Shown piece after piece: positions 4,507-45,056 of a stretch of DNA of 64,000 nucleotides. This stretch comes from a virus: the IMG/VR virus record IMGVR_UViG_3300027985_000918, positions 310,001-374,000 of that record; one strand, 5' to 3'. Numbering within the stretch: the stretch's first letter is position 1; each line of letters starts with the position of its first letter. Under the pieces are notes generated by a model that saw nothing but the letters and a program-made list of their open reading frames with translations, searched no databases and had not been told where the DNA came from. The translations under genes and the position numbers were made by a program.

Positions 4507-4537
4507 GTGGTAACTCGGAGATGTCTGCCAGTAGGTA

Positions 4538-4550: not shown

Positions 4551-4573
4551 GACCCTATCACAGGAGAAGTCCC

Positions 4574-6946: not shown

Positions 6947-6956
6947 GGACAGGCCC

Positions 6957-6984
6957 CCACTCTAGTTCACCCACCTTAGAGTGG
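6957..6984 (-). promoter_or_regulatory. Inverted repeat and shared motif upstream of phoH
   Basis: CCACTCTA (6957-6964) pairs perfectly with TAGAGTGG (6977-6984) around a 12-base loop, 11 bases before the phoH start. On the minus strand the right half contains GGGTGAACTAGAG, identical to 4538-4550, and TAGAGTGGGGG, also present upstream of the gene at 28389-28802. Likely promoter/operator. Confidence 0.45.
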
Positions 6985-7062
6985 ATGATAGCGGCCCTAC
7001 CGAACAGAGAGAAGCCCCGAGAGGACGGAGGGAGTTGCAGGTGGGCGGGAGGTGTCAGCCTG

Positions 7063-9552
7063 TCATGCCGCTTTGCGATCCACCGTGAAGTGTTCCCCCG
7101 TGACGTACACGGTCAGCAGCAGCCCGTTGCCCAGGGGGAAGAAGGTACCCTCCTCCTTCTCCGCCTTGGCGAGCTTGATGTCCGGGAAATCCTGGGAGAT
7201 CTGCTCCGCCGTCCGGGCCGATGTGGTGAAGCTCTCCGGGAGGAGGCCGGTGGCCCCAACGTAGAACACCAAGGGGCAAACCTTCTGCTGGTAGATGTCC
7301 GAGATCGCCCGGTCCACCCTCTTCAGCGTCTCCGCCAGCACCTCAACCTGCTGATCCCGATCGGCCACCGGCTCCCGGATGGCGAACATGAACGCCTTCC
7401 GGTCGTCGTAGTCGAGCCCAGCCTCCTGGAGCACGTCGAGGATGTGGCCGTTGTCCTCCAGGCCGAGGAAATCGGCGTAGATGGGGTAAGCCAGGGCGTC
7501 CACGGCATCGAGCTTCGTGCGAGACGAGAGCTGCTTGATTCCCCAGATGTTGTTCTTCCCCAGCCACATGTCGAGAGTGGGCTTTTCCACCTTCTCCCGC
7601 TTGTCATCCTGGAGGCTCCCGTCTCCGCCTCGAACCAGAGTGAATCTCCTCTGGAGGTAGGCGTTGCCAGAGGCGAGCTTACCGAGGTTCGTGATCTCGG
7701 CCGTACCCACCTCGACCCTGTAGGACAGGCGAGTGTCCACCTCTCCCTTGGCGATGGCCTCTTGGAGGTCAGTGTAGGGCACCGTCGAGGGCGGGGAGAA
7801 GTACAGGGAAGGGGTCAGATGGTACTGCCCCAGCTCTGCGATCTGGTCCCCCGTCAAGCTGGTGGAGCTGGACTTGAGGACCCCCGACAGGATCTTGCTC
7901 AGGACCGTGAACTTCGCCAGCTTGTCGAAGGTGCTGGGCTGGATGTCGAACTCCTGGCTGAAGTCCACCAGCGGCAGGTTCGCCATGTCAATCACCAGCA
8001 TGGCCGCCGGGTCGAACTCCCCGTCCACCACCCCCAAGGCCTTCAGTGCCCGGAAGGCCCTCTTGTCGGAGGTCTGGATCGGGAGCTTGGTCGTAGTGAC
8101 CTCCCCGTCCCCGATGAGGGTGTAGTTGCGGAAGTCTTTGAGATCTAGAGGGATGCCGGCCACCTTCTCGATGATGGTGCCGGTCTTCTTCTCCACCAGG
8201 TTCACATCCCGGACGAGGCGGATGTTGGCCGTGGCCGTGTTCCGGTTGATCTCCACCGCCGACACCTGGACGAACCCGTCCTTGCCGTTCTTCGGGTGAA
8301 CATCGTACTTCGGCTCCGTGACCGTACCATCCTCGTTGCGGACCCCGGCGACACGCTTGATGCCCCGGCGCTTGTAGTTCTCCATCATCGTCGGGACGTG
8401 AACCCGGATATGGCTGCGGTACTCGTCAATGGTCTGGAGGACCGACAGTGCTGTCGGTCCTTCGAGAGAGAGGCCGTAATTGCCATCCCATCTCCGGGAC
8501 GTGCCCGGGAGACGATTGAAGAGGGACTGCTCCACCCCCTCGGCCATGGAAGCCACTGCGGTGGCCGTGAGAGCCCTGTAGTGAGCCTTCAGGAGGTCGT
8601 CGTCCCTGGCGGAGACCAGGGCGTACTTGGCGACGTTGAAGTTGCCCTCGGAGATGGCAGCACGGGCGTAGGCCAAAGCCAGATCTTCTGGGGCATCCTT
8701 CTCGATGGCCTCGTACTGTTCCTGGGTGATCCCGAACAGCCGGTAGACGGTGGCGTCATCGCTCGCCGAAAGCCCACAGACGTTGATGGTTTCGGTCGTC
8801 CCGAGGACCTTCCTGCCGCTCTTGCTGACGAAGATGCCGTAGTCTGCGTCCCCCAAGTCCAGCTCAATCGTCGGGCTCATGCTGCCCGTCAGAAGCTGCT
8901 GAGTGTCGTAGAACGCCTGGTAGACCTGCTTGATGCTCTTGGCCTGGATGCAGGTACCCGAGAGCTGGTTGGCGATGCCTGCCAGGAGGTTGAAGTCGGA
9001 CCAGTCTCGGTAGGCGACCGTGTTGACGAACACGTTGGGGTGAGCCTTGAGCTGGCCCACGGCCTCCTGAATGGCCTTGTTCTCTCGGCTGGGAGAGCGG
9101 TCGTTGGCGTACCCGTCCGAGTGCAGGGAGATACATGTGATCTCCCCATCGCTGATCAGCTTCTCCGCCGCCGAGAGTCCCTGGCTGATACAGGTGAGCC
9201 CACGGACCTGAAGGTTGCGGATCTCTCGGATCTGGGGAGAGTCCACGCCCATCACATCCTCGATGGGGGTCCGCTCGAAGTGAACCCGCACGTCCCCCAT
9301 CGAACTGTACGTGATGAGGCTAACCTTCAACCCTGGGTTGTTGAACTCGTCGAGAGTCAGCACCTTCTCTACGGTAGCCTTGAGATCCCTGAGATCATGG
9401 TACATGGATCCGGACACATCGAAGACGAAAATGTGGTGGCTGGGGGATGATGCCGGAGCCGACTTCGACGTGTCTTTGACCTCGGTCTCGACACGGTAGA
9501 ATTCGACAGGCTCTCCCTTGAAGTTCCGAAGGGCGAATCGGGTCTGACTCAT
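7063..9552 (-). CDS. Large von Willebrand factor A (vWA) domain protein
   Basis: 829 residues. A vWA fold spans about residues 38-230: IFVFDVSGSM (D45, S47, S49 of the MIDAS), a central TCISQG Thr and SLHSDGYAN Asp complete the metal site. The remaining 600 residues show no motif I recognise and no signal peptide, so it is probably cytosolic. GGAGAAG precedes the ATG. vWA proteins usually act as metal-dependent adaptors, often with MoxR-type AAA ATPases; none is next to it here. Monocistronic between two short regulatory gaps. Role unknown. Confidence 0.85.
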   Translation of the reverse strand: MSQTRFALRNFKGEPVEFYRVETEVKDTSKSAPASSPSHHIFVFDVSGSMYHDLRDLKATVEKVLTLDEFNNPGLKVSLITYSSMGDVRVHFERTPIEDVMGVDSPQIREIRNLQVRGLTCISQGLSAAEKLISDGEITCISLHSDGYANDRSPSRENKAIQEAVGQLKAHPNVFVNTVAYRDWSDFNLLAGIANQLSGTCIQAKSIKQVYQAFYDTQQLLTGSMSPTIELDLGDADYGIFVSKSGRKVLGTTETINVCGLSASDDATVYRLFGITQEQYEAIEKDAPEDLALAYARAAISEGNFNVAKYALVSARDDDLLKAHYRALTATAVASMAEGVEQSLFNRLPGTSRRWDGNYGLSLEGPTALSVLQTIDEYRSHIRVHVPTMMENYKRRGIKRVAGVRNEDGTVTEPKYDVHPKNGKDGFVQVSAVEINRNTATANIRLVRDVNLVEKKTGTIIEKVAGIPLDLKDFRNYTLIGDGEVTTTKLPIQTSDKRAFRALKALGVVDGEFDPAAMLVIDMANLPLVDFSQEFDIQPSTFDKLAKFTVLSKILSGVLKSSSTSLTGDQIAELGQYHLTPSLYFSPPSTVPYTDLQEAIAKGEVDTRLSYRVEVGTAEITNLGKLASGNAYLQRRFTLVRGGDGSLQDDKREKVEKPTLDMWLGKNNIWGIKQLSSRTKLDAVDALAYPIYADFLGLEDNGHILDVLQEAGLDYDDRKAFMFAIREPVADRDQQVEVLAETLKRVDRAISDIYQQKVCPLVFYVGATGLLPESFTTSARTAEQISQDFPDIKLAKAEKEEGTFFPLGNGLLLTVYVTGEHFTVDRKAA

Positions 9553-10066: not shown

Positions 10067-11203
10067 TTGGACAAAAACACCACCCTAATGCGCCTGCTCT
10101 CCCGTTTCTGTGTGGATCACGAGGTTGGAGATCACACCTACGTTGTCGGCGGAGCCGTCCGGGACTTCTTGCTGGGGCGCCCTATCAAAGACGTGGACGT
10201 GGTCACGGACACCGTCAACGGAGGGCTGACCAGCGAGCTGCTGGCCCAGAGTCTGGCCCAGCAGTTCCAGGGATCTACCATCGTGACCAACAACTACGGG
10301 GTCGCCATCCTCACCCTGAGAGGCTGCGTCTACGAGGGGGTATGCCTAGACGGGATGGTCGTCGAAATTGCCAACGCCCGGAAAGAGTCCTATGGGGGGA
10401 AGACCGGAAAAGGCTACAAGCCTCACATGGTCGAACCGGCCTCCATTCAGGAGGATGTGGTCCGACGGGAGTTCCGGTTCAACACCCTCCTATGGAGGAT
10501 GGCCGACATCCAAGAAGGGCCGGTGGCGGCAAGAGTTCTTGACCTGACCGGCATGGGCCTGACGGACATCCGAGAGGGACAGATGGTGTGCCCGACGGAC
10601 CCCAACAAGGTGTTCACCGACGACCCCACTCGGATGCTCAGGGCGGTCAAGTTCGGCCTACGGCTCGGGTTCAACCTGGGGAGCCTGGAACTGGCCTGCA
10701 TCCAAACCCACGCCAGGGCGCTGCTGAACGTCCCCCCGAATGCGGTGGCAGTCATCCTGCTGAACGACATCTTCGGGGTGGACGTCCGGGAAGGTCTGAG
10801 GATGCTGGAACACATGGAGCTGCTTCCCGTGGTGAGAGAGATGGCGGATACCAACCCAGCCTTTCGCACCACCCTGACCCACTGGGCACGGCCCCGGGTC
10901 CATGCCATGCTGGATCTGGTCGAGGTGGGCCGCCTCCCCGTATCCGGGGGTCTGGAGATCATGCTGGGGGAGGAAGGAATGGGGAAGCTACGGCTCGCCG
11001 TTCATGAAATGGACGACCCGATGGCTCTGAGATTCGTCGAGGCGCTTCGCCAGCCGGGAAAGGTGATGGACACCCAAAAGGTGGCCATGCAGAGAGGCCT
11101 CACGGGGGCTCGGATGGGGGAGATCACGGTGGAAGCCCGGAACCTCCTACTGGAATCACCCAGCCTGTTCCGAGAGGGTCTCACGCAGGCGATGCTCCGG
11201 TGA
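10067..11203 (+). CDS. tRNA nucleotidyltransferase / poly(A) polymerase family (class II)
   Basis: 378 residues from a TTG at 10067, chosen because GAGGAA ends 7 bases upstream; the next in-frame ATG is 21 bases later. The N-terminus has the family signature VVGGAVRDFLLG (residues 26-37) and the catalytic DVD at 42-44, followed by RREFRFNTL and DDPTRMLRA, the conserved B and later motifs. Known members add CCA to tRNA 3' ends or poly(A) to RNA. In phage it may repair tRNAs cleaved by host defences (inference). The 3' end overlaps the convergent dCMP deaminase gene by 23 bases. Confidence 0.9.
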   Translation: MDKNTTLMRLLSRFCVDHEVGDHTYVVGGAVRDFLLGRPIKDVDVVTDTVNGGLTSELLAQSLAQQFQGSTIVTNNYGVAILTLRGCVYEGVCLDGMVVEIANARKESYGGKTGKGYKPHMVEPASIQEDVVRREFRFNTLLWRMADIQEGPVAARVLDLTGMGLTDIREGQMVCPTDPNKVFTDDPTRMLRAVKFGLRLGFNLGSLELACIQTHARALLNVPPNAVAVILLNDIFGVDVREGLRMLEHMELLPVVREMADTNPAFRTTLTHWARPRVHAMLDLVEVGRLPVSGGLEIMLGEEGMGKLRLAVHEMDDPMALRFVEALRQPGKVMDTQKVAMQRGLTGARMGEITVEARNLLLESPSLFREGLTQAMLR

Positions 11204-11849
11204 GTCGAGGGTCTTCCGGACCCTCGACTCGCTGGACAACCACCCCATGCTTTTCCAAGTACGACACCCCGTTCTCCCCAGCGTAGCCCCCCTCCACGAT
11301 GTACACACCCTTGATCCCAGCATGGTGGATCAGCTTCGAGCACATCATGCAGGGCTCTCCCGTCACAATGAGCCAAGCCCCCGCCGTTGCCACCCCTGCG
11401 GCTGCGGCGTTGCAAATGACATTCATCTCAGCGTGGTGGCAACCGATCTCCACCCGGGTCCCCGATTTGACACCGGGGTACTTGAAGGCCAGCTCTTGCC
11501 GGAACTCTTCCGCAGCTTCGGAGTTGCCGAAACTGAACTCCTGGTCCATCCCCCCGGGGGCCCATCCCCTAAGACGGCCCGTCGGGATGTGCTCAACGAG
11601 CCATTCCATAGGAGGATTCGAGACCGGGACCACCCTGGTATCCTTCAGAGGATAGCCGTCCCTCTCGCAGAAATGACCCCCACACAAGGGGCCGTCGGCC
11701 CCCCGAGGACCACCGTTGTAGCCGTCCATGAGGATGACGTTCCGCTTGATGTCGAGCAGAAAAGCGCCGAACTTCCTCCGGGGACAGTTACTGGCCTTGG
11801 CCAGAGAAAGGCACTGCTCAATGCGGATGGCAAGGTGCTTGGGGTTCAT
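11181..11849 (-). CDS. dCMP deaminase family protein
   Basis: 222 residues. The zinc site is complete: HAE at 139-141 and PCMMC at 166-170. Asn45-Gly (GYNGGPRGADG) and the Cys/His group CGGHFC (56-61) fit T4-type dCMP deaminases, which bind a second zinc. A roughly 60-residue insertion (70-130) separates the N-terminal region from HAE. Converts dCMP to dUMP, feeding ThyX. GGGAGAT precedes the start. Preceded by the MazG-like gene with a 30-base gap. Confidence 0.92.
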   Translation of the reverse strand: MNPKHLAIRIEQCLSLAKASNCPRRKFGAFLLDIKRNVILMDGYNGGPRGADGPLCGGHFCERDGYPLKDTRVVPVSNPPMEWLVEHIPTGRLRGWAPGGMDQEFSFGNSEAAEEFRQELAFKYPGVKSGTRVEIGCHHAEMNVICNAAAAGVATAGAWLIVTGEPCMMCSKLIHHAGIKGVYIVEGGYAGENGVSYLEKHGVVVQRVEGPEDPRLTGASPA

Positions 11850-11878
11850 GAGGATATCTCCCGGAGGTCTTGGGGGGT

Positions 11879-12229
11879 CTACCGACGGCCCTCAGTGGCT
11901 TCTACCACCTGCCAAGGCTCGGCCCCTGACAACGAACAGAGGGGCTCCCTTTGAAGGGAAGGGGTCTCCAGCAGGCCATCACACCGCTCGTTCAGGATGA
12001 ACAGAACCTCTTGGATGTCGATGTTGTGGGCTTTGAGCATTGAGAGCAGGACGAACAGTACGTCCCCCGCCTCTGCAGCAGGAGACGAGTCTCCCTTTCC
12101 CCGCAAAGATTCAATGAACTCAGAGACTTCGAGGTGGAGATAGCAACCCCCGTTGCTCCAGTTACGCTCCCACCGATGGTGGATGCAGACGGAGATACAC
12201 TTCTCGGCCACTTCCTCAACAGTTAGCAT
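11879..12229 (-). CDS. MazG-like nucleotide pyrophosphohydrolase
   Basis: 116 residues. The all-alpha NTP-PPase pattern is present: EVSEFIES (ExxE-type metal ligands) followed about 20 residues later by EAGDVLFVLL (ExxD). Such enzymes hydrolyse non-canonical or excess NTPs to NMP and pyrophosphate; phage members may also lower ppGpp. Next to dCMP deaminase, so a role in dNTP pool control is likely. Start overlaps the end of an unlikely small frame upstream. Confidence 0.82.
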   Translation of the reverse strand: MLTVEEVAEKCISVCIHHRWERNWSNGGCYLHLEVSEFIESLRGKGDSSPAAEAGDVLFVLLSMLKAHNIDIQEVLFILNERCDGLLETPSLQREPLCSLSGAEPWQVVEATEGRR

Positions 12230-29048: not shown

Positions 29049-29921
29049 TCAGCGGGTGACGGTCAGGCGGGCCAGGCCACGGGGGTTGTAGGCCCCGATG
29101 CCGAGGTTCTCAAACACAGAGAACCCGATGGTGCGGGCCTTGGGGTCGTCCGCCGAGAGGACGGTCAGCTCGGTACGGACCGGAATGCGACCGAAGTGCT
29201 CGGCTTCGCAGCACAGGTACACGGTCCCGACCGGAACGAGGCGGCTGACGACGATCTGGGCGCCGTAGATGACACCCATGAGACCCGTCTTCAGCAGGAC
29301 CGCCTGGGTTTCGATGTCCAGAATGTCCCGACCGAACTTACGGATGTCGGCATAGTCACGGGCATTCATGTACACCCGGGCCACACGGAGGTCCCAGCGT
29401 TCGATCAGGGCAAAGGCATCGGCCAGCACCGCACCGGAGATCGGAGCGATGACGGGGATGTCCGGGTTAAGCTGACCCGGCAGGCTGTCGAACCCGGCGG
29501 TGGCGATGGAGTCCATGATGGCGAAGACACGCTCGTCCTCGGCAGCCTGGACCTGCGCCCGAGCCAGATCCTGAGCACGCTCGATGAGATCGAAACGGCG
29601 CTCCTTGATCTGGGTGAGCGGGATCTCCGGGTTCGAGGCGATCTCGAACAGGGGGAAGATCACACGCCTGGGCTTCGTGATCGCCAGGATGTTCTGACCC
29701 TCTTCCCCTAGGACAAAGGCGGTGACATCCGGGTCCTTGTCGTAGATGGGGAGGGCCCCATCCGGAAGCTGTTCCACAAGGAACGTCTTGCGCCCGACGG
29801 CAGCGTAGTCACGCCGGGTGCGGAGGGGCGACGTCATGCTGGCGGCCAACTTCGCCCGTCCCATCGGGGTCTGGATCAGCTCGCCAATCAGACGCTGCTT
29901 AACTGCGTTGGTGATGGCCAT
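29049..29921 (-). CDS. Probable major capsid protein (HK97-type)
   Basis: 290 residues. Layout fits HK97-like major head proteins: N-terminal helix region, E-loop-like beta segment about residues 45-75 (FLVEQLPDGALPIYDKDPD), long helix 105-135 (ERRFDLIERAQDLARAQVQAAEDERV), then a beta-rich domain with VYMNARDYADIRKF and GAQIVVSRLVPVGTVYL, the peptide seen in many T4-like and giant-phage capsids. Strong terminator directly after, small decoration-type gene before, scaffold-like and protease genes upstream in the same direction. GGAGAG before the ATG. Confidence 0.85.
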   Translation of the reverse strand: MAITNAVKQRLIGELIQTPMGRAKLAASMTSPLRTRRDYAAVGRKTFLVEQLPDGALPIYDKDPDVTAFVLGEEGQNILAITKPRRVIFPLFEIASNPEIPLTQIKERRFDLIERAQDLARAQVQAAEDERVFAIMDSIATAGFDSLPGQLNPDIPVIAPISGAVLADAFALIERWDLRVARVYMNARDYADIRKFGRDILDIETQAVLLKTGLMGVIYGAQIVVSRLVPVGTVYLCCEAEHFGRIPVRTELTVLSADDPKARTIGFSVFENLGIGAYNPRGLARLTVTR

Positions 29922-30834: not shown

Positions 30835-32361
30835 TCAGTCCTCGATCCCAAACGCCTTGTTCACGTTGGGGGCGGACTTCCACAAATCGGACAGGTTATC
30901 CACCCTGCTGGAGGCAGTACGAGTCTGGTGACCCAGGCTCGTCACCCCCGTGCTAGCACGGCGGGGCTGCGGGAGCAGATCCAGATCCTCGCTCGCCTGG
31001 TGGCCGGGAAGGCCAGACGAGAAAATCTCGTCCAACAGGGCTTCGTCTGCGGCGGAGAGATGGATGCCCTGACCTTTGCTCAGACCCATCGGGTCGTGGC
31101 CGGAAACGTCGAAGAGGCTGGCGGTCTTGCCGTCTTCGCCCTCGTCTTCGCCTTCGCCCTCGCCCTCGCCCTCGTCTTCGCCTTCGCCCTCGCCCTCGTC
31201 TTCGCCCTCGTCTTCATCCTCCATGGACTTCTTACCGGCCTTCTTGTCCTTCTCCCAGGGCTTCTCGTCCTTATCGTCGTCGTCCTTGTCGTCGTCCTTT
31301 TTCCAGTTCTTCTTGAAGGCCTCGGGAACCTCGCCCGCCAGGACCATCTCCCCGCAAGCGTTCAGCATCCCGACTTCACCCTCAGTGAAGTCTTCCGCCA
31401 TCGCCAACAGGTCCTCCGACGGATCGAACATGGAACCCATCATCTCGTCGCAGGCCACGATGCCGTCACGATCGGTGTCCAGAGCAGCGAACAGAGCCTT
31501 CGAGCCGGTCCAGTCGGCGCCGAGAACGAACCCATCCTCGCCACCGCCGTGCTGGGCGAAGTAGGTGGCGATGCGGTTCTTGAGACTGGCAAATTTCCGG
31601 GAACCCGACTTGGGCTCACCCTTGCCAGGGGCGTCCGCCTCGTCACGCTCCTCCTTCTCCTCCTCCTCGGACTCCGCCGGAGGGTCGTTCTGGTCGGCGC
31701 CCTTGAGCTGAGCCTTCAGGCTGCGAAGCTCCGCCGCCATGTGCTGCAGCATGCCCATGACGTCGTCTCCGGGACCCTCGAAATCGTCGGCATACATGCC
31801 ATCATCAATGTCCATCACACCCAGGTCGTCATCCATCATGCCCATGTCGTCGTCGAACATGTCGTCGTCGTCGTCGAACCCGCCGAGGAACATGTCATCA
31901 TCCATCGCCATGAACCCGCCGCCGAGGCGCTTGAGGCTCGACTCGATGAACTTGTCCGGCAAATCCATCATGTCGAGGGCCTGGGACTCTACCTTGTCCT
32001 GGGAGGCCGCCTTGCCGAGCTGGTGCCGGGCGAGGACGAGACACTTAGCCGCCTTACTCGTGATCTGAGCGGACAGAGCAGCATCCTTCGGGACCCGGGG
32101 GTTCCGCTTGTGGGCGGGATGATCCTGGTCCTCGGAGTCATAGCCCGGAACCGCCGGGGGGTTGCCCTCAGGGTAAGGAGGCCGGCGAACGTCCTCATTC
32201 CAGGATGACGTGTCCCCGTTCTCGTACTGGTGGACGCCCGGATCATCCTGCGAGTGTGCAGGGTGGTCCTGGTCTTCCTTGCCGTAGCCGGGGACTGCGG
32301 GAGGGGCAGACGCCTTGCGGCTCGCCTGACCCCACGTAGTGCGATTGCGCTTGAAGCTCAT
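30835..32361 (-). CDS. Acidic scaffold-like virion protein with duplicated motif and EF-hand
   Basis: 508 residues. Two copies of PPAVPGY..EDQDHPAH (residues about 20-35 and 68-83), an extremely acidic Met/Asp stretch (150-200), a helix, an EF-hand loop DTDRDGIVACDE (about 300) and a long Glu/Asp/Gly low-complexity stretch (about 385-410), ending in a C-terminal segment. This composition and the place between protease and capsid suggest a scaffold or internal core protein that the prohead protease degrades. AGGAGAA before the ATG. Confidence 0.75.
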   Translation of the reverse strand: MSFKRNRTTWGQASRKASAPPAVPGYGKEDQDHPAHSQDDPGVHQYENGDTSSWNEDVRRPPYPEGNPPAVPGYDSEDQDHPAHKRNPRVPKDAALSAQITSKAAKCLVLARHQLGKAASQDKVESQALDMMDLPDKFIESSLKRLGGGFMAMDDDMFLGGFDDDDDMFDDDMGMMDDDLGVMDIDDGMYADDFEGPGDDVMGMLQHMAAELRSLKAQLKGADQNDPPAESEEEEKEERDEADAPGKGEPKSGSRKFASLKNRIATYFAQHGGGEDGFVLGADWTGSKALFAALDTDRDGIVACDEMMGSMFDPSEDLLAMAEDFTEGEVGMLNACGEMVLAGEVPEAFKKNWKKDDDKDDDDKDEKPWEKDKKAGKKSMEDEDEGEDEGEGEGEDEGEGEGEGEDEGEDGKTASLFDVSGHDPMGLSKGQGIHLSAADEALLDEIFSSGLPGHQASEDLDLLPQPRRASTGVTSLGHQTRTASSRVDNLSDLWKSAPNVNKAFGIED

Positions 32362-32393: not shown

Positions 32394-33944
32394 TCAGTGC
32401 TGTCCCCGGAGGGCCTGGCCCCTCCGAGACATGATGTTGCCGAGCCGCAGGAACACCCTGGCCTCAGCGGTACTGGGCTTGCGCCCAAGGGCGGAGGCAC
32501 AAGCCCCCAGGTAATCACGACCCGTACTGTACCCACTGGGGGCTCCCGCCCTCAGAACGGCCCGGTACAAGTTCCTATCGATCTCGATGCCAGCAGCCTT
32601 GTCCAGCGTTGCCACCCCCTCAATGAGAGCGATGTCCGAGCTGGCCGTCCTGGCCAATACCCGGATAGCAGCTTCGTGCTGGACGGTATCGTTGGGTGCC
32701 GTGGAGTCGTTGACCGCACGGGATGTGTCTTCCTCCCGCATCTGGTCCTTGATCTTCCGCTTCACCCGATCCTGCATGTACTGGGTGAGCTCTTCCTCGG
32801 TCTCCTGGAGGGGAGACCCAGACTGAGCCGGGGCAACAGCGCCACCCTCACCTTCGTCCTCACCCACCTCGTCGCCCTCATCCTCCCATCCGGCAATGAA
32901 ACTGTCTCTCCCCACCGCAAGAACATCCGAGTCCGTCAGAGGACCAGATGTGACCCTTCCCACCACACGAGCGTCCTGGTGGAAACGATCCTCCAAGATG
33001 CTAATGTCCGTGGCGGAACGCCCCATTGTGGCAGCACGCTGCATCTGGTTGGCATCCCACTCCGGGGGCGGGGAGTTGAGAACCTTGGCAGCCCTGTCGA
33101 GCATAACCTGGGTAGGTTCCAACACGTTCCGCAGGACTGCTCCCGTGAACGCTGGAGTTTCCACCCAACTTGCCTCGATGAACCGCACACCGCCAGTGGG
33201 ATCGATGCTATCGTGCCCACACAACTCCGCCACACGGTGCTGGCGGCCCAACTCGTCATAGAACACGGTGCCCTTGGCATACTTGATATGGGCACACATC
33301 TCAGTTTCGTCGGCAGCCCAGTGTCCACACTTGGTACAAATCGTGCCATCCACCGTACAGCCCATGGACATAGTGCCCATCTTTCCGGACTCAATGGCCT
33401 TAACCAGCTCAGTGTGCTTGCGGTCCGTGGCAACGAGGATGTCAATGTAAATGCTATCCCCGATATCACGGGCCACGGCGTCGATGATCCGACCCCGGGA
33501 CTGTGATTCGATCTGAACGTGCTCAACGAAGTTGTGCCCGCCCACAAACGTCTCGAACGCCTTGAGCAAAACCGGGCGGCTCCAGGCATCGAGGTTGTTG
33601 TTGATGAACTTGTCGCAGACCGGCTTTACCCGGTAATCCCCATACCTGCGGTTCACTCGGAACCCATCCTCCATCTGGTGGCCGAGCTTAACCCCCTGGG
33701 GGGACTCGACATCGACCGACGCCACAATGGTGGCATGGGTCAGGAGGAAATTCTTGGGGTTGAACGGCTTACCCAAGAGTTGAGTGGCCCGTTCCACCAG
33801 GTTGCTGGCCATGGCGACCTTGGTGGGCCTGAAATCCTTGGCGATCTTCCCGCTCTGCCTTGCAGCAGCTCGGACATTGCCCCACTGCTTCCGCCCAATT
33901 GACGGATTGGCGATTGTGGCATAGGCGTACTTCATCATCGGCAT
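32394..33944 (-). CDS. Prohead protease with zinc-finger insertion and C-terminal extension
   Basis: 516 residues. The region HNFVEHVQ ... GRIIDAVARD ... YIDILVATDR ... GKMGTMSMGC (Ser193) follows the herpes/T4-type assemblin protease pattern (His and Ser of the active site). Right after the Ser, CTKCGHW ... CAHI (about 203-219) forms a zinc-like knuckle seen in some large-phage relatives, then CGHDSIDPTGGVRFIEASWVETPAF. The last 200 residues are acidic then helical, possibly a fused scaffold part. Upstream of the scaffold-like and capsid genes. Matures the head by cleaving scaffold and capsid proteins. Confidence 0.82.
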   Translation of the reverse strand: MPMMKYAYATIANPSIGRKQWGNVRAAARQSGKIAKDFRPTKVAMASNLVERATQLLGKPFNPKNFLLTHATIVASVDVESPQGVKLGHQMEDGFRVNRRYGDYRVKPVCDKFINNNLDAWSRPVLLKAFETFVGGHNFVEHVQIESQSRGRIIDAVARDIGDSIYIDILVATDRKHTELVKAIESGKMGTMSMGCTVDGTICTKCGHWAADETEMCAHIKYAKGTVFYDELGRQHRVAELCGHDSIDPTGGVRFIEASWVETPAFTGAVLRNVLEPTQVMLDRAAKVLNSPPPEWDANQMQRAATMGRSATDISILEDRFHQDARVVGRVTSGPLTDSDVLAVGRDSFIAGWEDEGDEVGEDEGEGGAVAPAQSGSPLQETEEELTQYMQDRVKRKIKDQMREEDTSRAVNDSTAPNDTVQHEAAIRVLARTASSDIALIEGVATLDKAAGIEIDRNLYRAVLRAGAPSGYSTGRDYLGACASALGRKPSTAEARVFLRLGNIMSRRGQALRGQH

Positions 33945-33947
33945 GGA

Positions 33948-34583
33948 TCAGCCCTCCATCATGCGCTGGCGGGCCAACCGGATACTGGCGAACGGCTTAG
34001 AGGCTGCCTCTGCCTCAGCCACATCGTCGATGTACTCCGGGTGACCGATGATGTCACACTCCTTGACCAAGAACAGGCACTCCGGGCACCCAAGCAGCCG
34101 CTCGCTCACCCCCCCCTGCCTCTTGTAGGAGGCGGGGCGGAGGATGGCTTCCTTGCACTTTGGGCAGTTGAAATTGCCTGCATCAATCTCCGTCTGGGTT
34201 GCCTTGTAGTGGCGATCCTTGGCGGCCCAGTAGAGGGACTTCTTGACGAACGCCTGGGCAACCCGGGCGGCGCTCTCAGGGGTGAGACTGGCGGCCTTGG
34301 GGCCGCCGGGGACGCTGACCGTCCCGGCACCCCCGGGCACGTTATCATGCTCGGGGTCTGCGGGGATCACGTCCTTCTGCTCATACCGCTGAAGCTCTTC
34401 GACTGGTTTGCGCTCGGACCCGTGAGGCCACTCCACATCCACCATGCCAATGGCGGGATAGACCGTCGTGACACGGCCGATTAGGTCATGGTTGCCGCTC
34501 AGGAATGGGTATACCCGGTCACCAACCTCAAACTCCAAAGCCCGCTGTTGGTAATCCACATATGCAGAGCGGTCGTTACTCAC
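33948..34583 (-). CDS. Virion-type protein with SH3-like and zinc-ribbon parts
   Basis: 211 residues from a GTG (GAGAGG upstream). N-terminal KOW/SH3-like segment (FEVGDRVYPFLSG ... VTTVYPAIGMVDVEWPHG), then the motif AARVAQAFVKKSL, then CPKC ... CPEC (four-Cys ribbon), then a helical end. No enzyme motif. Stops 4 bases before the protease gene. Likely a capsid or DNA-associated virion protein. Confidence 0.7.
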   Translation of the reverse strand: MSNDRSAYVDYQQRALEFEVGDRVYPFLSGNHDLIGRVTTVYPAIGMVDVEWPHGSERKPVEELQRYEQKDVIPADPEHDNVPGGAGTVSVPGGPKAASLTPESAARVAQAFVKKSLYWAAKDRHYKATQTEIDAGNFNCPKCKEAILRPASYKRQGGVSERLLGCPECLFLVKECDIIGHPEYIDDVAEAEAASKPFASIRLARQRMMEG

Positions 34584-34607: not shown

Positions 34608-35264
34608 TCAGGAGAACAGGTTGAACCCGTGGCTGGCCTTCTTGCCGGCGTCCTTCTCGTCGTCCTCGTCCTCGCCGTCAGAAGCCCAACGGCTACCGGC
34701 CTTCTTGCCAGCGTCCTTCTCGTCGTCCTCGTCCTCGTCGTCTGAAGAAGACTTGATGACGCCCGTGGCGAGTTCGAGAGCCTTGGCAGCCTTGGCAGCC
34801 CCTGCGGGGGTCAACTTGGCGCTCTTCAGAGCGGCCAACAGAGCCTTGAAGTTGGCCTGGACACCAGGGTTGGCGGGCTGAGGATCGAGGTCCGGTGCGG
34901 CGATGTTGCCACTCTCGACCTCCTCTCGAAGCTCCCGGCGCTCCTGCTGGGAAAACTCACCCCTCATGTAGGACTCATCCGAGTCACCCTCCAGGGGGCC
35001 GGCCTTCTCGACACCAATCTCGGAGGGATTGAAATCGGCGTTCTTGAGATTGCCCTTCTGATCTCGCACCAGCCCGGCGGTCCGCTCGATGCGGTCGGCC
35101 AAAAGGTCGCACCGATGAGCGAAATCGGAAGCCACCTTCTCGGGGATGCCGAGAGAAGTGTGCTCCATCTGGATGAGGGTGGCAATGCGATCCAGAGCGG
35201 CGCTAGCCTGGAATGCGCCCTTCTTTGTGATGCTCTTGGGCATGTCTTCGTGCTCCTGTTCCAT
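34608..35264 (-). CDS. Hypothetical protein with duplicated acidic-basic tail
   Basis: 218 residues from the ATG at 35264 (GAGG 5 bases upstream); an ATG at 35243 with AGGAG is an alternative. Helical N-terminal and central regions; the C-terminus holds two copies of DEDDEKDAGKKA separated by a short linker. The repeat is also visible at DNA level (two near-identical stretches at 34640-34730). First gene after the promoter motif at 35324. Possibly a scaffold or head-core component. Confidence 0.68.
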   Translation of the reverse strand: MEQEHEDMPKSITKKGAFQASAALDRIATLIQMEHTSLGIPEKVASDFAHRCDLLADRIERTAGLVRDQKGNLKNADFNPSEIGVEKAGPLEGDSDESYMRGEFSQQERRELREEVESGNIAAPDLDPQPANPGVQANFKALLAALKSAKLTPAGAAKAAKALELATGVIKSSSDDEDEDDEKDAGKKAGSRWASDGEDEDDEKDAGKKASHGFNLFS

Positions 35265-35362: not shown

Positions 35363-38300
35363 TCAACTGGGTAGTTCCTTGTCCTCTGTTACGGCCCTCA
35401 TATACGCCCGGAACGCATCCGGTCTCATCTCCCGGATGCGCTTCCTCTCCTTGGGGTCGGTGACGTTTTTGAGCCATTCCTGCTTCTTCTGTTCCGGGGT
35501 CTTCTCAGGATTCTGCTTGTCTTCCCGGACCTTCCGACCGTCATCCTTCGGCTCGACCTTCTGATCGAGAACCGAGAGGTCTCCAGTCTCACTCACATGG
35601 CGGACCCGAGCTACGTTCGGATTCATCTTGTCGGGCACCGTTCCCGACAGCTTCTCTGCGGTAGACATCGTCAAACGCAGATCCTGAACCTGGACTCCCT
35701 CCCCTGCCTTTAGGCAGCTCTCCAGATCCTCCTGGGTCACAGCCTTGGCGATGCAGTGTGCCAGCTCATCGGCGGCCCCCTTGAGGGCCTTGTCGTCTGT
35801 CTTGGCCTGGCGTACCCTTTCGGCCAGACTCTCAGGGTCTGTGGTAGGCTTAGAAGTGGGCTTGGTTTTACCCTTCCCCTTCTCATCGGTCTCCTTCCCC
35901 TTGTGGAAAGCGTTCAGGAACCCTTGGGTTACAGTCATGTCGTTTAGGGCCAGCATCTTGAGCACATCTCGGGCGAACGCTCTCCCCTCTGCCGTGATGT
36001 GGTTGTCCTCATCATCATCCGTAAGAACCCTACCGATGGCCTCATAGGGGCTATTATCCCCTGCCACAGTTTCCACCAATTCATCGTCCGACATGATGTC
36101 CAGAGCATCCCTGACCTTGACCCTCCCCTCAGGGCTGTACAAATCAGAAGCCCCCTTCAACAGTACGTCTTCGTCCCCAAGGACAGCCAGAGACTGAGCC
36201 ATCCTCTGGAAGCTCTTAGACATCTCCTCCGTGCCGGAGAGCTGGCGACCTTGTACAGCAGCGGCCAACATCATCCCCGACTTGATAGCATCCAGCTCGA
36301 TGTACTCGTCTGATTCGGGGTCGGCCTTATCCAATTCCTGCTTGAGCTGGTCGGCAGCAGCATCCAGAAGCCCCGGCCCCGCCTTACGGAACTGGTGGTA
36401 AGCCTCAAGAGACCGCCCATGCAGCTCCTCCGCCGTTTTGTTGTTGTTGTTGACCGCCCGGCCACCAACAAGACGAGGGTTAGCCACCACCTTCGTGGCG
36501 AACACATACTCAGCCAGGCGCTTCGCTCGCACCTGGGGGGCAGCCTCCGCCAACCCCTTGGTCCCCCTCTTGAGAGCAGACTGAGCCCTCTTCAAGACAT
36601 CCACAGTCAACCCCCCATCCTCCGCACGAGCGCTCAGAAGCTGTCCCATGTGAGAAGCATAAGCCTCTGCCAGCTCCTGCTTAGCGGAGGCCACATTCTT
36701 CTCGTACTCTGCCTTAAGCCTCTGGATATGATCCCGAACCCCCTGAGCACTCTCCTGATCTTCCGGAACCTCTGGGTACTCCGGCTCTTCCGGCCACAAA
36801 TCACCCAGGTCCATTCCCTGGACGGCCTTGTCGAAATCAGCAAGCTGTCTCTGCTGCTTGGCCCTCTGCTGTTCCCGTTCCTTAACCTTTCGCTCTTCCG
36901 CTTGCTGGGCAGCGACCTCTGGATCTTCTTCCTCCTCACCTTCCCCGCCCCCTTCAGCCCTCCTCTTAGCGGATTCTTCATCGGGAGCCGACGTGGGCTG
37001 CTTGGACTTGGGAGGCCAAACACCCCAGCCGTTCTCCGTCTGCCAGTAGTCTCCCTCTTTGTGTTCAGCATCCTGTGGGACCTTCCCAGCAATGCGAATA
37101 GGAGGACCTGACAAGACCATCAACATCCGGTCACCGGCATCCGTGATAGCGGCAACCTTCTTGTAGTTCAGGGAGAGATCGGGATCCTTCTCAGCCTTCC
37201 CCGTGTCGTCCACGTCCGGGTCATACTCGTCCATCCGATTGCGACGAAGGTCCTGCCGGGGAGGCTTCTTCGATGGCTTCGGACGATTCATCCGCTCTAC
37301 TTCCTCGTTCTCCTTCTCCCCCTCATCTTTGGTCGCCTGCCGGTACAGGTAAGCCGAAGCCACTCTCCCGGCTGCCTTCCTGATCCACTCTGCAGCCAGG
37401 CGGAGGGACGTACTTGCCCCCTTGCCCAGCCGGACCGGATCTTCGTCAGAGCCCTTCTTGTCAAGACGTTTCATGACCTCGCCGGAGGCGAGGTACTTGT
37501 CGGCCAAACCGGGGACCAGGTACTGGCTCTTAAGGGTCGAGGGTTCATGGCCCACCGCCTTGGCGGTCTCTTTTAGAGCCTGCTCAAATTCCTTCTTGAG
37601 CAGCTTCCCCCGCTCCTTCTTATCCTCGGGCAGCTCCCCACCCTTGGAGCGGATATCCTTGAGACGGCTCTGCATCTCGGCATTGGCGTGGTACCCCCGC
37701 ATGTCCTTAGCGGTGATGCCGAAAGGCTCCAGGTACTCGTTCACGTCTTCGGCAGAGATATCCCCCGTTAGGCTGTCATTCTCCCCCTTTCCCTCTTTGG
37801 CGGCCTTGAGAGCCGACACCAAAGCCGGATCACTGACAACCTTCTCGTGACTCACGCCGGACTTGCCGACGTACTTGACGGTGACTTTGTTGCCGGAAAA
37901 GGTCAGATGCTTGACCTTCCAACCTGTGACCCCATAGTGCCCATCCTCAGCAGACTCCTCATTGCCGACCCGCTCGTATGTCTCGTCCATGAGGCCAACA
38001 ATCAGGGCCTTTAGCCGGGTGTCCTCGTCCTTGGACTTCAAATCCTTCGACACCTGCGCCCTCAGCTTGGTGATGGATCCACGTAGCTTCTCTACCTGCT
38101 TAGCCTTCTCTCGGTTCCGGAGTTCAATCTGGCCCTCGCTGTACTCGTAGACGGTCGTGGTCCCTTTGCCATCGGCCTTGGGGACCTCCTTCTTCTTCTG
38201 ATACTTGGCGGACACCCGAAGAACGGCCTCCTTAGAAAGCCCCCCCGCTGTTGCGGCGGCCTCATCGTAGCGGAGCTTGAACAGTTTGATCTCCATGTCC

Positions 38301-40483
38301 TGCTTGCGCCCCTTGGGCACTGGCTCCACGATCACCACAGGTTCCCCAGACTTCTCGTCAGTCTTGAACTCTTTGATAACCCCCTTCTTATTCTTGTACT
38401 TGCCGTACAAGACGGGGTCACCGACATTCAGGGTGAAGGTTTTGGCGATCCGCAGAGCTGCCTCCTTCATCCACTCGTTATCCTCCGGGGGGTACAGCTC
38501 CTGGAGGTGTGGCATCTCATCCTGGAGGCCCGTGTAGACCCCCTTGAGCAAAGTCTTCTTCGCCTGGGTGTTCAGGGCCCTATGGACCCTGTTCCATGTG
38601 GTGGAATTCTCCAGGGCACGGTCCAGGAGGGACATCGAGGCTCCCGCCCAGAGGTTTCCGGCCCCCCCCTGCTCATGGACGTAATCAATCACTTCGTCCA
38701 CGATCTGCTGCATGAACGCCCGGATCTCAGTCGCTTCGTTGTGGTAGGTGTCCTCGTCAAGGTGACTGATTCCCCCTGGGGCAAGAAGGTCCCGGAGGTG
38801 GGTGATTTCATGAATCAGAACCGAGTACACCTCCTTGGCGACCCGGGCCTCATTGTCCAGAAACGCCTTGGGGGACTTGGCAGCATCGAGAGTGACCGTC
38901 ATCTGGTACTTGAACGCATGGCTCCCCTGAACCCTCTGCGTAACTGCCCCCCCTACCACATACTGCCGGGGACCGCTGAAACCCAAGGCCTTGTTTCTGG
39001 ACTCAACCTTGACATCCACAGCCACAAGGGCGCCCTTCACATCCTGGACGACGTACTTAGCGACGACAAAACCCCATGTGTCCGGCCGGAACCCCCGCTG
39101 GGAGTACAGAGAGTCAGAAGGGTCATCTCGAAACCGTAGGTGCTGGGGCAGCACCTGCATGATCTTGTCCGTCAGCCCCTTGGCCTCGACCTTGTTGATC
39201 GGAATAGGACGAGCAGCCCTCTTCTTGGTGTACGCCTGTGCCACTCGGAACACTGCCCCAGCGGTACGCTGCCAGCTTTCTGAGGTCATCCCCATCCGCT
39301 TAGCCGGCACCTGTCCTTTGCCCACCGTCCCCTGTCCCCGGGCAAGCCTCATAAGGGGCTTGCCATACAAACCGGACATGCTCAGCGCCCTCTGCATCCT
39401 GAACTTGCCCACATCGGACAGCTTCTCGGGGGCCGACATGAAGGCAACGAAAGACTCTGCAAAGTCCTCCCTCTCGTTGGTCTTGGCGTACTCAGTGGGC
39501 ACATGTAGGGCTTCGATAGCCTGGGCCACCGCAGAGTCACCCTGGGCATACTCTGCCACCTGCTCTTCGGTGAGAACAGGGTGGTGGTAGCTAGAGTACG
39601 AGTCCAGCACTCCCATCTTGTCCTGCTTCTGGCGCCATGCCCGGGAAAGAACCTGGTCGAACCTCTCAGTCCCAGGAGTCACCCCCTGGTTCTCCTCGAC
39701 GTGCTTCTGGAACCAGGACCGCAGAGCCTTATTCCGGCTGAGCCGCTTAGCGATCTGCTTCAGATGGTAGACGTTAGCATTCCCCATCCAGAAGGTCAGA
39801 TCTTCTATGAGCCCCCGAAAATCCTGCTGGGCCTCGGAGCCCATCTCCAGAAAGGGGTCGGAGCTGCTGTACTTCTCCATGCCTGCACGGAGCTTGTGAA
39901 CCTGAGGCATCCCCCAGACCTCAATCTCGTCGAAGGACCAGGAACCAGTCGGGATCGGACCCTCCCACTCAGTGTCGAGACCGTCGAGGTATTCAAGGGT
40001 GGTGTGGGGGCGGTAAACCGTCCAGCTATCCGTTACCTCGACCCCAATGTCCTGGATAGCCGACTTGAGACGGTCCCGAAGCTCTGCCATGCGGTGACTG
40101 AATCGAATGGGGAGAATAGCAACCCGCCGCTGCTGGGATTCATGGGTGAAGTAGTCCAACCCCTCCAGTTTGGCCTGTACGGGCCCCCTCAGTTCTTCGG
40201 ACACCACCCGCTGGCAGGTCTCGATGAACTCGTCCTCATGACCCTTGACGTTGCCAACGTAGAGCAGAGTGACGTGGGGCGGACTCTTGTCGTTACCCGA
40301 CTTTTTCACCGGAAACTGGCTGGAAATCCCCCGGGGTAGAGGAATGAACAGCCCTGTCCACTCCGTGCTGTCGCCGGTCTTTTTGCCGTCATCGGGACCG
40401 GCGTGCCTTTTAGCCCAATCAGCCTTGACCTGCTGCCGGACGGCCAATCTGCGAGCCTGTGCTTGAAGAATAGGGTGCTCCAC
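35363..40483 (-). CDS. Giant 1706-residue multidomain virion-type protein (2H phosphoesterase, zincin, coiled coils)
   Basis: GTG start with GGAGG 8 bases upstream. Domains: residues 40-200 a 2H phosphoesterase with PHVTLL (H70, T72) and PHTTLEY (H160, T162); 325-350 a segment YAKTNEREDFAESF like that following HExxH in phage minor-head zincins, here without HExxH; 405-425 the motif VFRVAQAYTKKRA; 550-590 a zincin site HEITH (558-562) with YHNEATEIRAF (probable third ligand E586); about 680-730 a KOW-like NVGDPVLYGKYKNKKGVIKE; then long charged helices, another RVASAYLYRQA, and Glu/Lys-rich C-terminal half. No portal- or tape-measure-type pattern. Sits between portal and head genes: likely an internal or ejected protein (inference). 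Confidence 0.72.
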   Translation of the reverse strand: MEHPILQAQARRLAVRQQVKADWAKRHAGPDDGKKTGDSTEWTGLFIPLPRGISSQFPVKKSGNDKSPPHVTLLYVGNVKGHEDEFIETCQRVVSEELRGPVQAKLEGLDYFTHESQQRRVAILPIRFSHRMAELRDRLKSAIQDIGVEVTDSWTVYRPHTTLEYLDGLDTEWEGPIPTGSWSFDEIEVWGMPQVHKLRAGMEKYSSSDPFLEMGSEAQQDFRGLIEDLTFWMGNANVYHLKQIAKRLSRNKALRSWFQKHVEENQGVTPGTERFDQVLSRAWRQKQDKMGVLDSYSSYHHPVLTEEQVAEYAQGDSAVAQAIEALHVPTEYAKTNEREDFAESFVAFMSAPEKLSDVGKFRMQRALSMSGLYGKPLMRLARGQGTVGKGQVPAKRMGMTSESWQRTAGAVFRVAQAYTKKRAARPIPINKVEAKGLTDKIMQVLPQHLRFRDDPSDSLYSQRGFRPDTWGFVVAKYVVQDVKGALVAVDVKVESRNKALGFSGPRQYVVGGAVTQRVQGSHAFKYQMTVTLDAAKSPKAFLDNEARVAKEVYSVLIHEITHLRDLLAPGGISHLDEDTYHNEATEIRAFMQQIVDEVIDYVHEQGGAGNLWAGASMSLLDRALENSTTWNRVHRALNTQAKKTLLKGVYTGLQDEMPHLQELYPPEDNEWMKEAALRIAKTFTLNVGDPVLYGKYKNKKGVIKEFKTDEKSGEPVVIVEPVPKGRKQDMEIKLFKLRYDEAAATAGGLSKEAVLRVSAKYQKKKEVPKADGKGTTTVYEYSEGQIELRNREKAKQVEKLRGSITKLRAQVSKDLKSKDEDTRLKALIVGLMDETYERVGNEESAEDGHYGVTGWKVKHLTFSGNKVTVKYVGKSGVSHEKVVSDPALVSALKAAKEGKGENDSLTGDISAEDVNEYLEPFGITAKDMRGYHANAEMQSRLKDIRSKGGELPEDKKERGKLLKKEFEQALKETAKAVGHEPSTLKSQYLVPGLADKYLASGEVMKRLDKKGSDEDPVRLGKGASTSLRLAAEWIRKAAGRVASAYLYRQATKDEGEKENEEVERMNRPKPSKKPPRQDLRRNRMDEYDPDVDDTGKAEKDPDLSLNYKKVAAITDAGDRMLMVLSGPPIRIAGKVPQDAEHKEGDYWQTENGWGVWPPKSKQPTSAPDEESAKRRAEGGGEGEEEEDPEVAAQQAEERKVKEREQQRAKQQRQLADFDKAVQGMDLGDLWPEEPEYPEVPEDQESAQGVRDHIQRLKAEYEKNVASAKQELAEAYASHMGQLLSARAEDGGLTVDVLKRAQSALKRGTKGLAEAAPQVRAKRLAEYVFATKVVANPRLVGGRAVNNNNKTAEELHGRSLEAYHQFRKAGPGLLDAAADQLKQELDKADPESDEYIELDAIKSGMMLAAAVQGRQLSGTEEMSKSFQRMAQSLAVLGDEDVLLKGASDLYSPEGRVKVRDALDIMSDDELVETVAGDNSPYEAIGRVLTDDDEDNHITAEGRAFARDVLKMLALNDMTVTQGFLNAFHKGKETDEKGKGKTKPTSKPTTDPESLAERVRQAKTDDKALKGAADELAHCIAKAVTQEDLESCLKAGEGVQVQDLRLTMSTAEKLSGTVPDKMNPNVARVRHVSETGDLSVLDQKVEPKDDGRKVREDKQNPEKTPEQKKQEWLKNVTDPKERKRIREMRPDAFRAYMRAVTEDKELPS

Positions 40484-43058: not shown

Positions 43059-45056
43059 TCACCTTCCTCGGATACTTCCCCGGTTGGACCGGGAGGGTTG
43101 GCGATCCGGGCTCGATCCGCCCCCCTGCATGGCACGGATGCGAGCCTTGCGGGCCTGCTTAGCGGTCAAAGCCCTCTGGGGGAGCATCCCCGGCGGCAAG
43201 TTGTTGTTCCGGCCAGCAATGTGCTTGGGCTTGATGATGTGCTGGCTGGCACACCAGACCATGCGAACAAGTGCATCCGACATGTCGTCGTGCTTACCTT
43301 TGATGTTTGGAGCCTCCACAGTCACCAGATACTTGGTTTGGTACTCTGCCTGGAGTTCCAGCAGCTCTTCGATGTACGGGCAATGCTCAGCGGCTTCGGG
43401 GTCCCCCGTCTTTGACGGCTTGGGCCAGTCGTACAACCTCAGCCTCTTGTCCCACATGAAGTCCTTGAAGTTACGGAACATCTGGGAGCTGAGCTGCTTG
43501 GTGAAATGCTCAGACTGGAGCATCTTCAAACCCCGGTTATGGAGGGCCTGCTCAAACACGATCCCCGCCCACTGATCGAAAATCCCCTCTGCGAACATGA
43601 ACCGCTTGGAAAAGCCGGTAACCCAGTCGGCCACATCGTCGAACTCCAGCCTCTCCAAATGGGCGTACTCACCCTCCCCAGCCCGAATCTGTTCAACGAC
43701 ATCCAGCTCGATCGTACCGTCGTCCCCCAGATGCCCGATGGCAATGGCGCTGCCATCCCCCGCAAGAGCGAAGTCGAGACCAATGTAATGGGGCTGGCGA
43801 GACCGCCCCCGGAGCTTCGGGCGAAGCTCAGTGTCCACACAGGCCAGGAGGTCGTCCTCGTCCTCAATCCACCCCCGGGTGCGATCCGTGAAGTGCCCAC
43901 CGTATTCGGTGAAAAACACAACGGGGTCGGCCCGGTATGCCTGCTCCAACTCATCCCCATCCACGAAAGGGTTGACCTCCCAAGTTGGAGCCTGGATGGC
44001 GATCATGTTGGGGGCGCCACTCATAGCAAGTTGGAATTGCTTGTAGAACTCCCCCTGCCTTCCCAGAGGAGAGCTGATCCCGATCATGCGGCCTTCGACC
44101 GGACCGCCCGCAGCGGGAGAAAAAGCAGACATGGACGGTTTTACAGCGTTCCACACCTCGGTGGCCGAGGACTGGCCCGCATCCGTAAAGTGGGCCATCT
44201 CATCAAGGATAATCACAATGTTACCGGCACCCCGGAGACCTTTGGCTCGGCAGGGACGGAACGTCACACGGATGGTAGCATTGGCCTTTTCATCATCCAC
44301 ATACCGGCCATACCTCTCGATGTCCTTCGGGGTCTGGAACCTGGCATAGGACATGGTATTGTTGGCGGTATACGGGGCAAAGAAAGCACAGTCTTTGTAA
44401 TACCCTGCCACCTTGCTATAAAGGATGCCAGCCTGTTCCTTATCGGTCGCTACCGAAATTAGCTGGATGGGTTCACCTGCGGGCAGTCCATAGTATTCCT
44501 GGGGATCGCCTTTGGAAATCAGCTTATATGTCTCGTAAGCACCGATGATTGAAGCCAACTGGGTTTTGCCCGAACGACGGCCCACCGACAAGATCATGAC
44601 CCGCAGCTCCGTTCCCGGAGCCGTCCTTACACTGCATTGTCCCTTCTCAAACAGGTAATTTAGGTACTCAACCTCCGACATGAACTTCCACTTGCGGCGC
44701 TTCCAGTCAGAGACCATCACCACGTTCTCGTACAGACCCCCCCAATCATCCTGGCTCATGACGTGAGGGAACGTGTTCGCCAGACTGAGGGCCTGCCTCG
44801 GGCGACGGTTCTTGAGGGTGATCTCATCGTACTGGGGGTGACTCCGGGGAACGGGCTTGGAAAGATCCAGACCGTAGGGGTTGTCGTCCAGGGGCATCCC
44901 ATAGTGCAACTTGAGGATGATCCTCTGCACTGGGTACAGCTCCATCCCCAGACCCCATCGGGACTCAGCAAACGTGAGGATGTCTGCTACAGAGGTAGAC
45001 CCGGTGCCCTTCTGGGCGGCACCAATGTCAAGGGCTAGGCTGGCGAGATTCGGCAT
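43059..45056 (-). CDS. terL: Terminase large subunit
   Basis: 665 residues. ATPase: VGRRSGKT (Walker A, about 160) and IVIILDEMAHF (Walker B, about 280), with coupling motif ISSPLG. Nuclease (RNase H fold): GLDFALAGDG (first Asp), FDQWAG and the C-terminal KHDDMSDALVRM. Both activities are therefore intact; it packages DNA into the prohead and cuts concatemers. C-terminal tail is basic and probably disordered. GAGGAT before the ATG. No intein insert. Confidence 0.95.
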   Translation of the reverse strand: MPNLASLALDIGAAQKGTGSTSVADILTFAESRWGLGMELYPVQRIILKLHYGMPLDDNPYGLDLSKPVPRSHPQYDEITLKNRRPRQALSLANTFPHVMSQDDWGGLYENVVMVSDWKRRKWKFMSEVEYLNYLFEKGQCSVRTAPGTELRVMILSVGRRSGKTQLASIIGAYETYKLISKGDPQEYYGLPAGEPIQLISVATDKEQAGILYSKVAGYYKDCAFFAPYTANNTMSYARFQTPKDIERYGRYVDDEKANATIRVTFRPCRAKGLRGAGNIVIILDEMAHFTDAGQSSATEVWNAVKPSMSAFSPAAGGPVEGRMIGISSPLGRQGEFYKQFQLAMSGAPNMIAIQAPTWEVNPFVDGDELEQAYRADPVVFFTEYGGHFTDRTRGWIEDEDDLLACVDTELRPKLRGRSRQPHYIGLDFALAGDGSAIAIGHLGDDGTIELDVVEQIRAGEGEYAHLERLEFDDVADWVTGFSKRFMFAEGIFDQWAGIVFEQALHNRGLKMLQSEHFTKQLSSQMFRNFKDFMWDKRLRLYDWPKPSKTGDPEAAEHCPYIEELLELQAEYQTKYLVTVEAPNIKGKHDDMSDALVRMVWCASQHIIKPKHIAGRNNNLPPGMLPQRALTAKQARKARIRAMQGGGSSPDRQPSRSNRGSIRGR

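Follow-up and report, generated by a model that had tools for sequence, protein, structure and literature searches.

A predicted polyvalent-class protein joining a type IB topoisomerase, a 2H phosphoesterase and a candidate zincin among the head genes of a huge phage

Genomic location

The DNA considered here, hereafter the window, is a stretch of 64,000 nucleotides from a bacterial virus, namely a huge tailed phage with a record of 402,383 bases (402 kb). A first-pass annotation, made from the letters of the window alone, had pointed out a 1706-residue protein encoded among head genes, and on both counts it was right (Table 1). A single open frame, designated P0001, is read on the minus strand from position 40483 to position 35363, with a GTG start and a GGAGG Shine-Dalgarno sequence directly 5' of it, and lies between the portal gene and the gene of the head maturation protease. 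The N-terminus of P0001 is kept in a sister phage (L006) and in L049. With the whole protein as query, PHROGs gave no match; Rfam, searched with the window and a related locus (L011), returned neither an RNA element nor an intron for the slot, and membership of a defence system was dropped, PADLOC returning none. Of the two conserved genes that follow, g33948 carries a Zn-ribbon-like stretch (weak NCBIfam match) and a motif RVAQAF. Short-period direct repeats, acidic/lysine-rich on the minus strand, are found at 31131-31221 and 34635-34747, inside two head-region ORFs.

Table 1. Features of P0001 and of its surroundings in the window
Feature	Residues of P0001	Position in window	Strand	Basis
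Whole ORF P0001, candidate polyvalent virion-slot protein		35363..40483	-	1706 aa, GTG, Shine-Dalgarno
2H phosphoesterase domain	21-204	39872..40423	-	PF13563 9e-11; drCPDase/LigT fold match; alignment A3
First HxT motif	H70-T72	40268..40276	-	invariant in A3
Second HxT motif	H160-T162	39998..40006	-	invariant in A3
Second half of zincin-like domain, HExxH half absent	262-382	39338..39700	-	L006 comparison
Candidate zincin metallopeptidase domain	405-660	38504..39271	-	alignment A4, n=15; model pLDDT 84
Tag-like RVAQAY, just before zincin	413-418	39230..39247	-	motif scan, A4
HEITH motif	558-562	38798..38812	-	A4
Glu586, candidate third zinc ligand	586	38726..38728	-	invariant in A4
SH3-like module	669-748	38240..38479	-	fold type from sequence only
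Tag-like RIAKTF, start of SH3-like module	678-683	38435..38452	-	motif scan
Type IB topoisomerase domain	750-1015	37439..38236	-	PF01028 3e-30
Tag-like RVASAY, after topoisomerase IB	1040-1045	37349..37366	-	motif scan
Conserved C-terminal region	1278-1648	35540..36652	-	52% identical in L006
Terminase large subunit		43059..45056	-	phrog_2 5e-28
Portal protein, immediately upstream of P0001		40528..42435	-	phrog_16240 1e-25
g34608, conserved head-region gene after P0001		34608..35279	-	in 42/60 loci
g33948, conserved head-region gene		33948..34583	-	in 39/60 loci
Head maturation protease		32394..33944	-	phrog_18299 6e-13
Major head protein		29049..29921	-	phrog_2522 4e-48
Separate CCA/PAP-type nucleotidyltransferase		10067..11203	+	PF01743 1.6e-17; same family as fused domain

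Domain organisation

Three parts of P0001 had been overlooked at first, namely the type IB topoisomerase (topo IB) domain, the SH3-like module and the half zincin-like domain. The topo IB domain is the strongest of the protein (105.7 bits against PF01028, cut-off 23.7), finds its best PDB sequence match in the poxvirus topo IB (8e-14) and possesses the complete catalytic pentad, i.e., R838, K874, R929, H979 and Y988, invariant in 16 of 16 sequences. Enzymes of this type require neither ATP nor metal. Like the poxvirus and bacterial enzymes, it combines the PF01028 domain with the full R-K-R-H-Y set and aligns to the poxvirus structure; unlike them, it forms one part of a longer chain with several enzymes, encoded in a head-gene slot of a phage. 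In the related locus L011 (4416-11186), one protein carries two topo IB-like domains, of which the copy at residues 655-929 is about 25% identical to that of the window.

The 2H phosphoesterase domain had been proposed from its two histidine-threonine pairs, and this assignment was confirmed by the family profile (PF13563, 42.4 bits against a cut-off of 27), the fold and the conserved motifs, all of which agree. Both H70/T72 and H160/T162 are HxT motifs, invariant in nine of nine aligned sequences, and P0001 as such shows the two HxT/S motifs in a 2H fold by which the superfamily is recognised. When an AlphaFold2 model of the domain (pLDDT 84, pTM 0.80) was compared with the PDB, drCPDase, an RNA 2',3'-cyclic phosphodiesterase, came first (E = 6e-8) and E. 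coli LigT next, with Usb1, viral 2'-5' phosphodiesterases (PDEs) and penguinpox cGAMP PDE lower down. The likeness to LigT/ThpR and drCPDase thus extends to the fold and to the HxT/HxT motifs (best PDB matches from E 6e-8 to 4e-7), whereas sequence identity is about 20%, the domain is embedded in a giant phage protein and its score against the RNA 2',3'-cyclic phosphodiesterase equivalog TIGR02258 (2e-7, 31.1 bits) lies below the cut-off of 65.7, so that the substrate is not fixed by family score. It is the only 2H domain in the phage genome.

The anti-CBASS protein Acb1, with which this domain had been compared, is a small free-standing protein. The two have in common the 2H fold class, the HxT/HxT tetrad (H44/T46/H113/T115 in Acb1; PMC9117128) and their phage origin, but the 2H domain of P0001 displays no detectable sequence relation to Acb1. 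Of the expected fold relationships, that with LigT-type 2H enzymes was recovered and that with Acb1 was not: Acb1 is absent from the best 50 PDB folds, headed by drCPDase and E. coli LigT, as well as from the profile matches, and membership of the Acb1 family was rejected on both rankings.

Further along the chain, the HEITH motif and downstream glutamate noted in the first-pass annotation are strongly conserved, the H, E, T and H of the motif being invariant together with N582 and E586 in 15 of 15 aligned sequences, several of which are standalone proteins. The fold gave no such backing, the model of this domain (pLDDT 84) having no solved match in the PDB (best E 0.2); among phage proteins, it matched unnamed proteins, and M34/SprT-like peptidases appeared only weakly (E 0.04-0.08). 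As the model is confident yet lacks a solved match, the zincin label rests on motif conservation, and residues 405-660 are best described as a candidate zincin. The half domain preceding it is 64% identical to residues 563-682 of the L006 protein encoded at 4102-7137, which keeps an HEVGH motif upstream. In relatives, the SH3-like module occurs beside topo IB, zincin or 2H domains, or alone. As for the long coiled coils initially ascribed to the protein, the description was overstated: residues ~1160-1300 are charged and rich in Glu, Lys and Gln, while the part from 1278 to 1648 is a conserved region common to relatives, being present in L010, L013 and L018 as well as in L006.

Relatives in other huge phages

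Relatives were gathered by topo-based and 2H-based searches followed by a wider search, which yielded 60 non-redundant huge-phage topo loci; several are contig fragments, in which the absence of a module is weak evidence. The topo IB adjoins portal/prohead-protease genes in 47 of these 60 loci, and the gene order portal, polyvalent gene(s), g34608, g33948 and protease is kept. There are also Xanthomonas/Erwinia jumbo phages in which a topo gene lies close to a head-tail connector. Within the slot, the same modules recur in varied order, sometimes in a single gene and sometimes spread over several, accompanied by others, namely (i) an ADP-ribosyltransferase (ART-PolyVal), (ii) GNAT, (iii) InPase, (iv) a nucleotidyltransferase of the CCA-adding/poly(A)-polymerase (CCA/PAP) type, (v) a HAD RNA-repair domain, and (vi) zincins. 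The ORF encoding topo IB exceeds 1000 aa in 39 of the 60 loci, the largest reaching 3125 aa, and some slots hold little beyond topo IB (508 aa in LR745208, 335-400 aa in others). That reshuffled versions occupy the same spot in dozens of huge phages suggests a toolkit in the particle, delivered at infection. The corresponding slot of LR745208.1 (L002, 11467-12990) encodes topo IB as a fusion with a HAD "Swiss Army Knife RNA repair" domain; the 2H domain of this genome is encoded elsewhere, and no CCA-type gene was found in it.

The 2H domain and the nucleotidyltransferase are joined in one polypeptide in 14 loci, in either order and often about 10 residues apart. Over the 60 loci, both are present in 15, 2H only in 7, the nucleotidyltransferase only in 12 and neither in 26 (Fisher p = 0.008, uncorrected for relatedness); the nucleotidyltransferase is accordingly absent from the available stretch in 7 of the 22 loci with 2H. 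In the window phage and its sister, it is a gene of its own, 30-35 kb from the polyvalent gene. The product of this gene in the window phage is 39-44% identical to most of the fused domains and scores below the cut-offs of both the CCA and the poly(A) polymerase families. The phage genome (G000) additionally encodes RtcB and two ATP-grasp RNA ligases (36239-37516, 81296-81760 and 11331-11879) as well as two clusters of tRNA genes, about 30 in total.

One of the tRNAs (158402-158477, minus strand of G000) has a CUA anticodon and is possibly an amber suppressor, TAG still serving as a stop in many genes; wholesale stop-codon recoding, at which this tRNA hinted, was ruled out since TAG ends 49 long ORFs. 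An insert of about 430-440 residues interrupts the nucleotidyltransferase domain in L018 (2028-10445), L097, L112 and L142. Pfam identifies that of L018 as a LAGLIDADG intein, and from the similar gaps in L097, L112 and L142 it would seem that inteins have entered this domain repeatedly. In L011 (1457-2545), the nucleotidyltransferase gene is broken by a 363-aa ORF, possibly of the homing-endonuclease type, and no Rfam intron was found.

A recurrent short motif

N-termini and inter-domain stretches of these proteins repeatedly show a short motif, A-x-RVA[AS]R[YFW], whose contexts are many and unrelated and whose frequency is some 30 times that expected by chance. In the looser form R[VIL]A.[RK][YFW], it is found 53 times in 431 ORFs of the related loci against 1.9 in shuffles, nine copies falling within the first 30 residues (0.16 expected), while order-permuted versions of the pattern have a median count of 2. 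In hold-out loci, the counts are 67 against 2.0 expected and, near N-termini, 13 against 0.19. When copies were grouped by flanking similarity, 29 separate contexts were obtained in the related loci and 23 in the hold-out. The motif opens standalone zincins, an ART-PolyVal protein and a GNAT protein, and separates domains in fused proteins. Relatives have stronger forms of it than the window phage (RVAQAY, RVASAY). A genome-wide bias towards the motif in this phage was rejected, only 14 copies being found against 4.6 expected; given this weak excess, the case for the motif rests on the related loci.

Short signals of this kind have precedents, the capsid-targeting sequence of T4 Alt/IPIII being one that brings enzymes into the head. 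To that sequence the RVAxRY-like motif is alike in idea, not in compared sequence, and it differs in being also located inside proteins, between domains. In phage P1, the giant DarB protein, encoded beside portal and protease, is packaged via an N-terminal signal, and a reporter served to show that its first 30 residues are enough to get a protein packaged (PMC9024508). From these P1 and T4 precedents and from its position, the RVAxRY-like motif may be a cargo tag, i.e., a loading or cleavage signal. No description of it occurs in the articles found on these systems.

Assignment to a known class

Polyvalent proteins of phages and conjugative elements, including P1 DarB, were surveyed by Iyer et al. 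(2017; PMC5512222). In the terms of that survey's main text, P0001 is alike in its very large size, its unrelated enzyme domains including 2H and zincin, and its head-gene context; it is unlike in its topo IB, which, as well as the CCA/PAP nucleotidyltransferase of relatives, goes unmentioned in that main text. Neither module was described as a polyvalent part in the few other, mostly open-access, articles searched. Unrelated activities (2H, topo IB and an HExxH domain) are combined in one chain, the gene lies between portal and head maturation protease as do its relatives in 47 of the 60 loci, and the repertoire is that of polyvalent proteins, with 2H and a zincin-like domain here and ART-PolyVal, InPase and GNAT in relatives. 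As judged from its sequence, P0001 is probably a member of this previously known class, with a new domain combination. Type I topoisomerases of the jumbo phages Motura, NCTB, phiRSL1, Lu11 and PaBG are presented as DNA-topology genes in PMC7824862; they share with P0001 the tyrosine-recombinase-type superfamily and the large size of the phage, whereas the passages on them mention no fusion to 2H, zincin or nucleotidyltransferase.

Possible roles

It had been suggested that the protein is packaged or ejected and acts as an effector at infection. The slot and the multi-enzyme architecture support this idea. The head-gene position points to likely co-expression, not to packaging, and packaging and ejection themselves are inferred. 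Our literature search found no virion proteomics of the window phage or of the relatives gathered here, and three jumbo-phage articles examined for virion proteomics name no relative of the topo IB. P0001 would be produced alongside the head proteins, travel in the virion and enter the cell together with the DNA. Uptake of its modules into the prohead would possibly depend on the RVAxRY-like motif, and either the prohead protease or the zincin may cut them apart. On entry, the topo IB would relax the torsion of the incoming genome; the 2H domain would open 2',3'-cyclic phosphates on RNA ends, chiefly of tRNAs cut by host defence nucleases, and the opened ends would then be rebuilt by the phage nucleotidyltransferase and RNA ligases, while the target of the zincin would be a host protein or its own polyprotein. 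Considering the intact LigT-type 2H site, the intact topo IB set, the conserved HExTH...E and the conserved slot, we give this explanation as a whole, i.e., a virion-carried polyvalent protein combining topo IB, RNA-end repair and zincin, an even chance of being right. A more specific version, in which a portable tag A-x-RVA[AS]R[YFW] loads swappable enzymes into the head, among them topo IB for the incoming genome and an RNA-repair kit (2H and CCA/PAP-type nucleotidyltransferase) for mending tRNAs cut by host defences ahead of phage gene expression, is put forward tentatively and the odds are against it. In the window phage, the nucleotidyltransferase may not be co-packaged, as its gene lies about 30 kb off, outside the slot.

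The same virion-delivered 2H domain could instead serve counter-signalling, degrading in an Acb1-like manner 2'-5' oligoadenylate or the cyclic oligonucleotides of CBASS or type III CRISPR, a role already proposed for polyvalent 2H domains in Iyer et al. (2017; PMC5512222, main text). cGAMP is a substrate of LigT-fold PDEs from T4 (Acb1) and from avian poxviruses, and since enzymes of this fold can do either (PMC11410667), signal cleavage has to be reckoned with; penguinpox cGAMP PDE, MHV ns2 and rotavirus VP3 figure among the fold matches, and in relatives 2H is also found with ART-PolyVal, InPase and a MuF-like tail where the nucleotidyltransferase is absent. On the other hand, RNA cyclic phosphodiesterases and not Acb1 lead the fold and profile rankings, and the 14 fusions to a CCA/PAP-type nucleotidyltransferase indicate RNA ends. 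These fusions, together with the separate nucleotidyltransferase, RtcB, the two RNA ligases, the tRNA genes and the lone 2H domain, make a genome context in which RNA-end repair is the likelier role and cleavage of signals in the manner of Acb1 the less likely one, and counter-signalling is held to be possible but doubtful.

A structural or assembly role, where topo IB and the rest of the protein would untangle DNA at the portal while the genome is packaged or ejected, or where the protein would be a scaffold degraded by the protease with the other enzymes as undelivered passengers, is unlikely. Topo IB is indeed common to all loci and mostly adjoins portal and protease, some slots are nearly topo only, and the variable length and charged tail resemble a scaffold; yet the 2H and topo IB active sites are kept intact, unlike what is seen in a scaffold, and we know of no assembly function for the ART, GNAT and InPase domains of relatives. 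Least probable of all is an ordinary late cytoplasmic multi-enzyme protein for DNA topology and RNA repair, placed in the head operon by chance: standalone copies exist and, in PMC7824862, topo I of this superfamily and 2H enzymes of other jumbo phages are counted as replication/RNA-repair genes, but chance would hardly account for the slot conserved in 47 of 60 loci and for a short motif on unrelated enzymes there.

Were delivery with RNA-end repair correct, some of the largest phages would travel with an enzyme for untwisting DNA and a kit for RNA repair already in their particles, by which defences that cut tRNAs or rely on signals could be blunted in the opening minutes of an infection. 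Should the RVAxRY-like motif be a loading signal, it would provide a simple sequence rule for predicting virion proteins of uncultured huge phages. Elsewhere in G000 (397042-402111, minus strand), a 1690-aa ORF has a tag-like N-terminus, MITEGAIRRVAESWSGG, and this large protein is another possible member of the cargo class.
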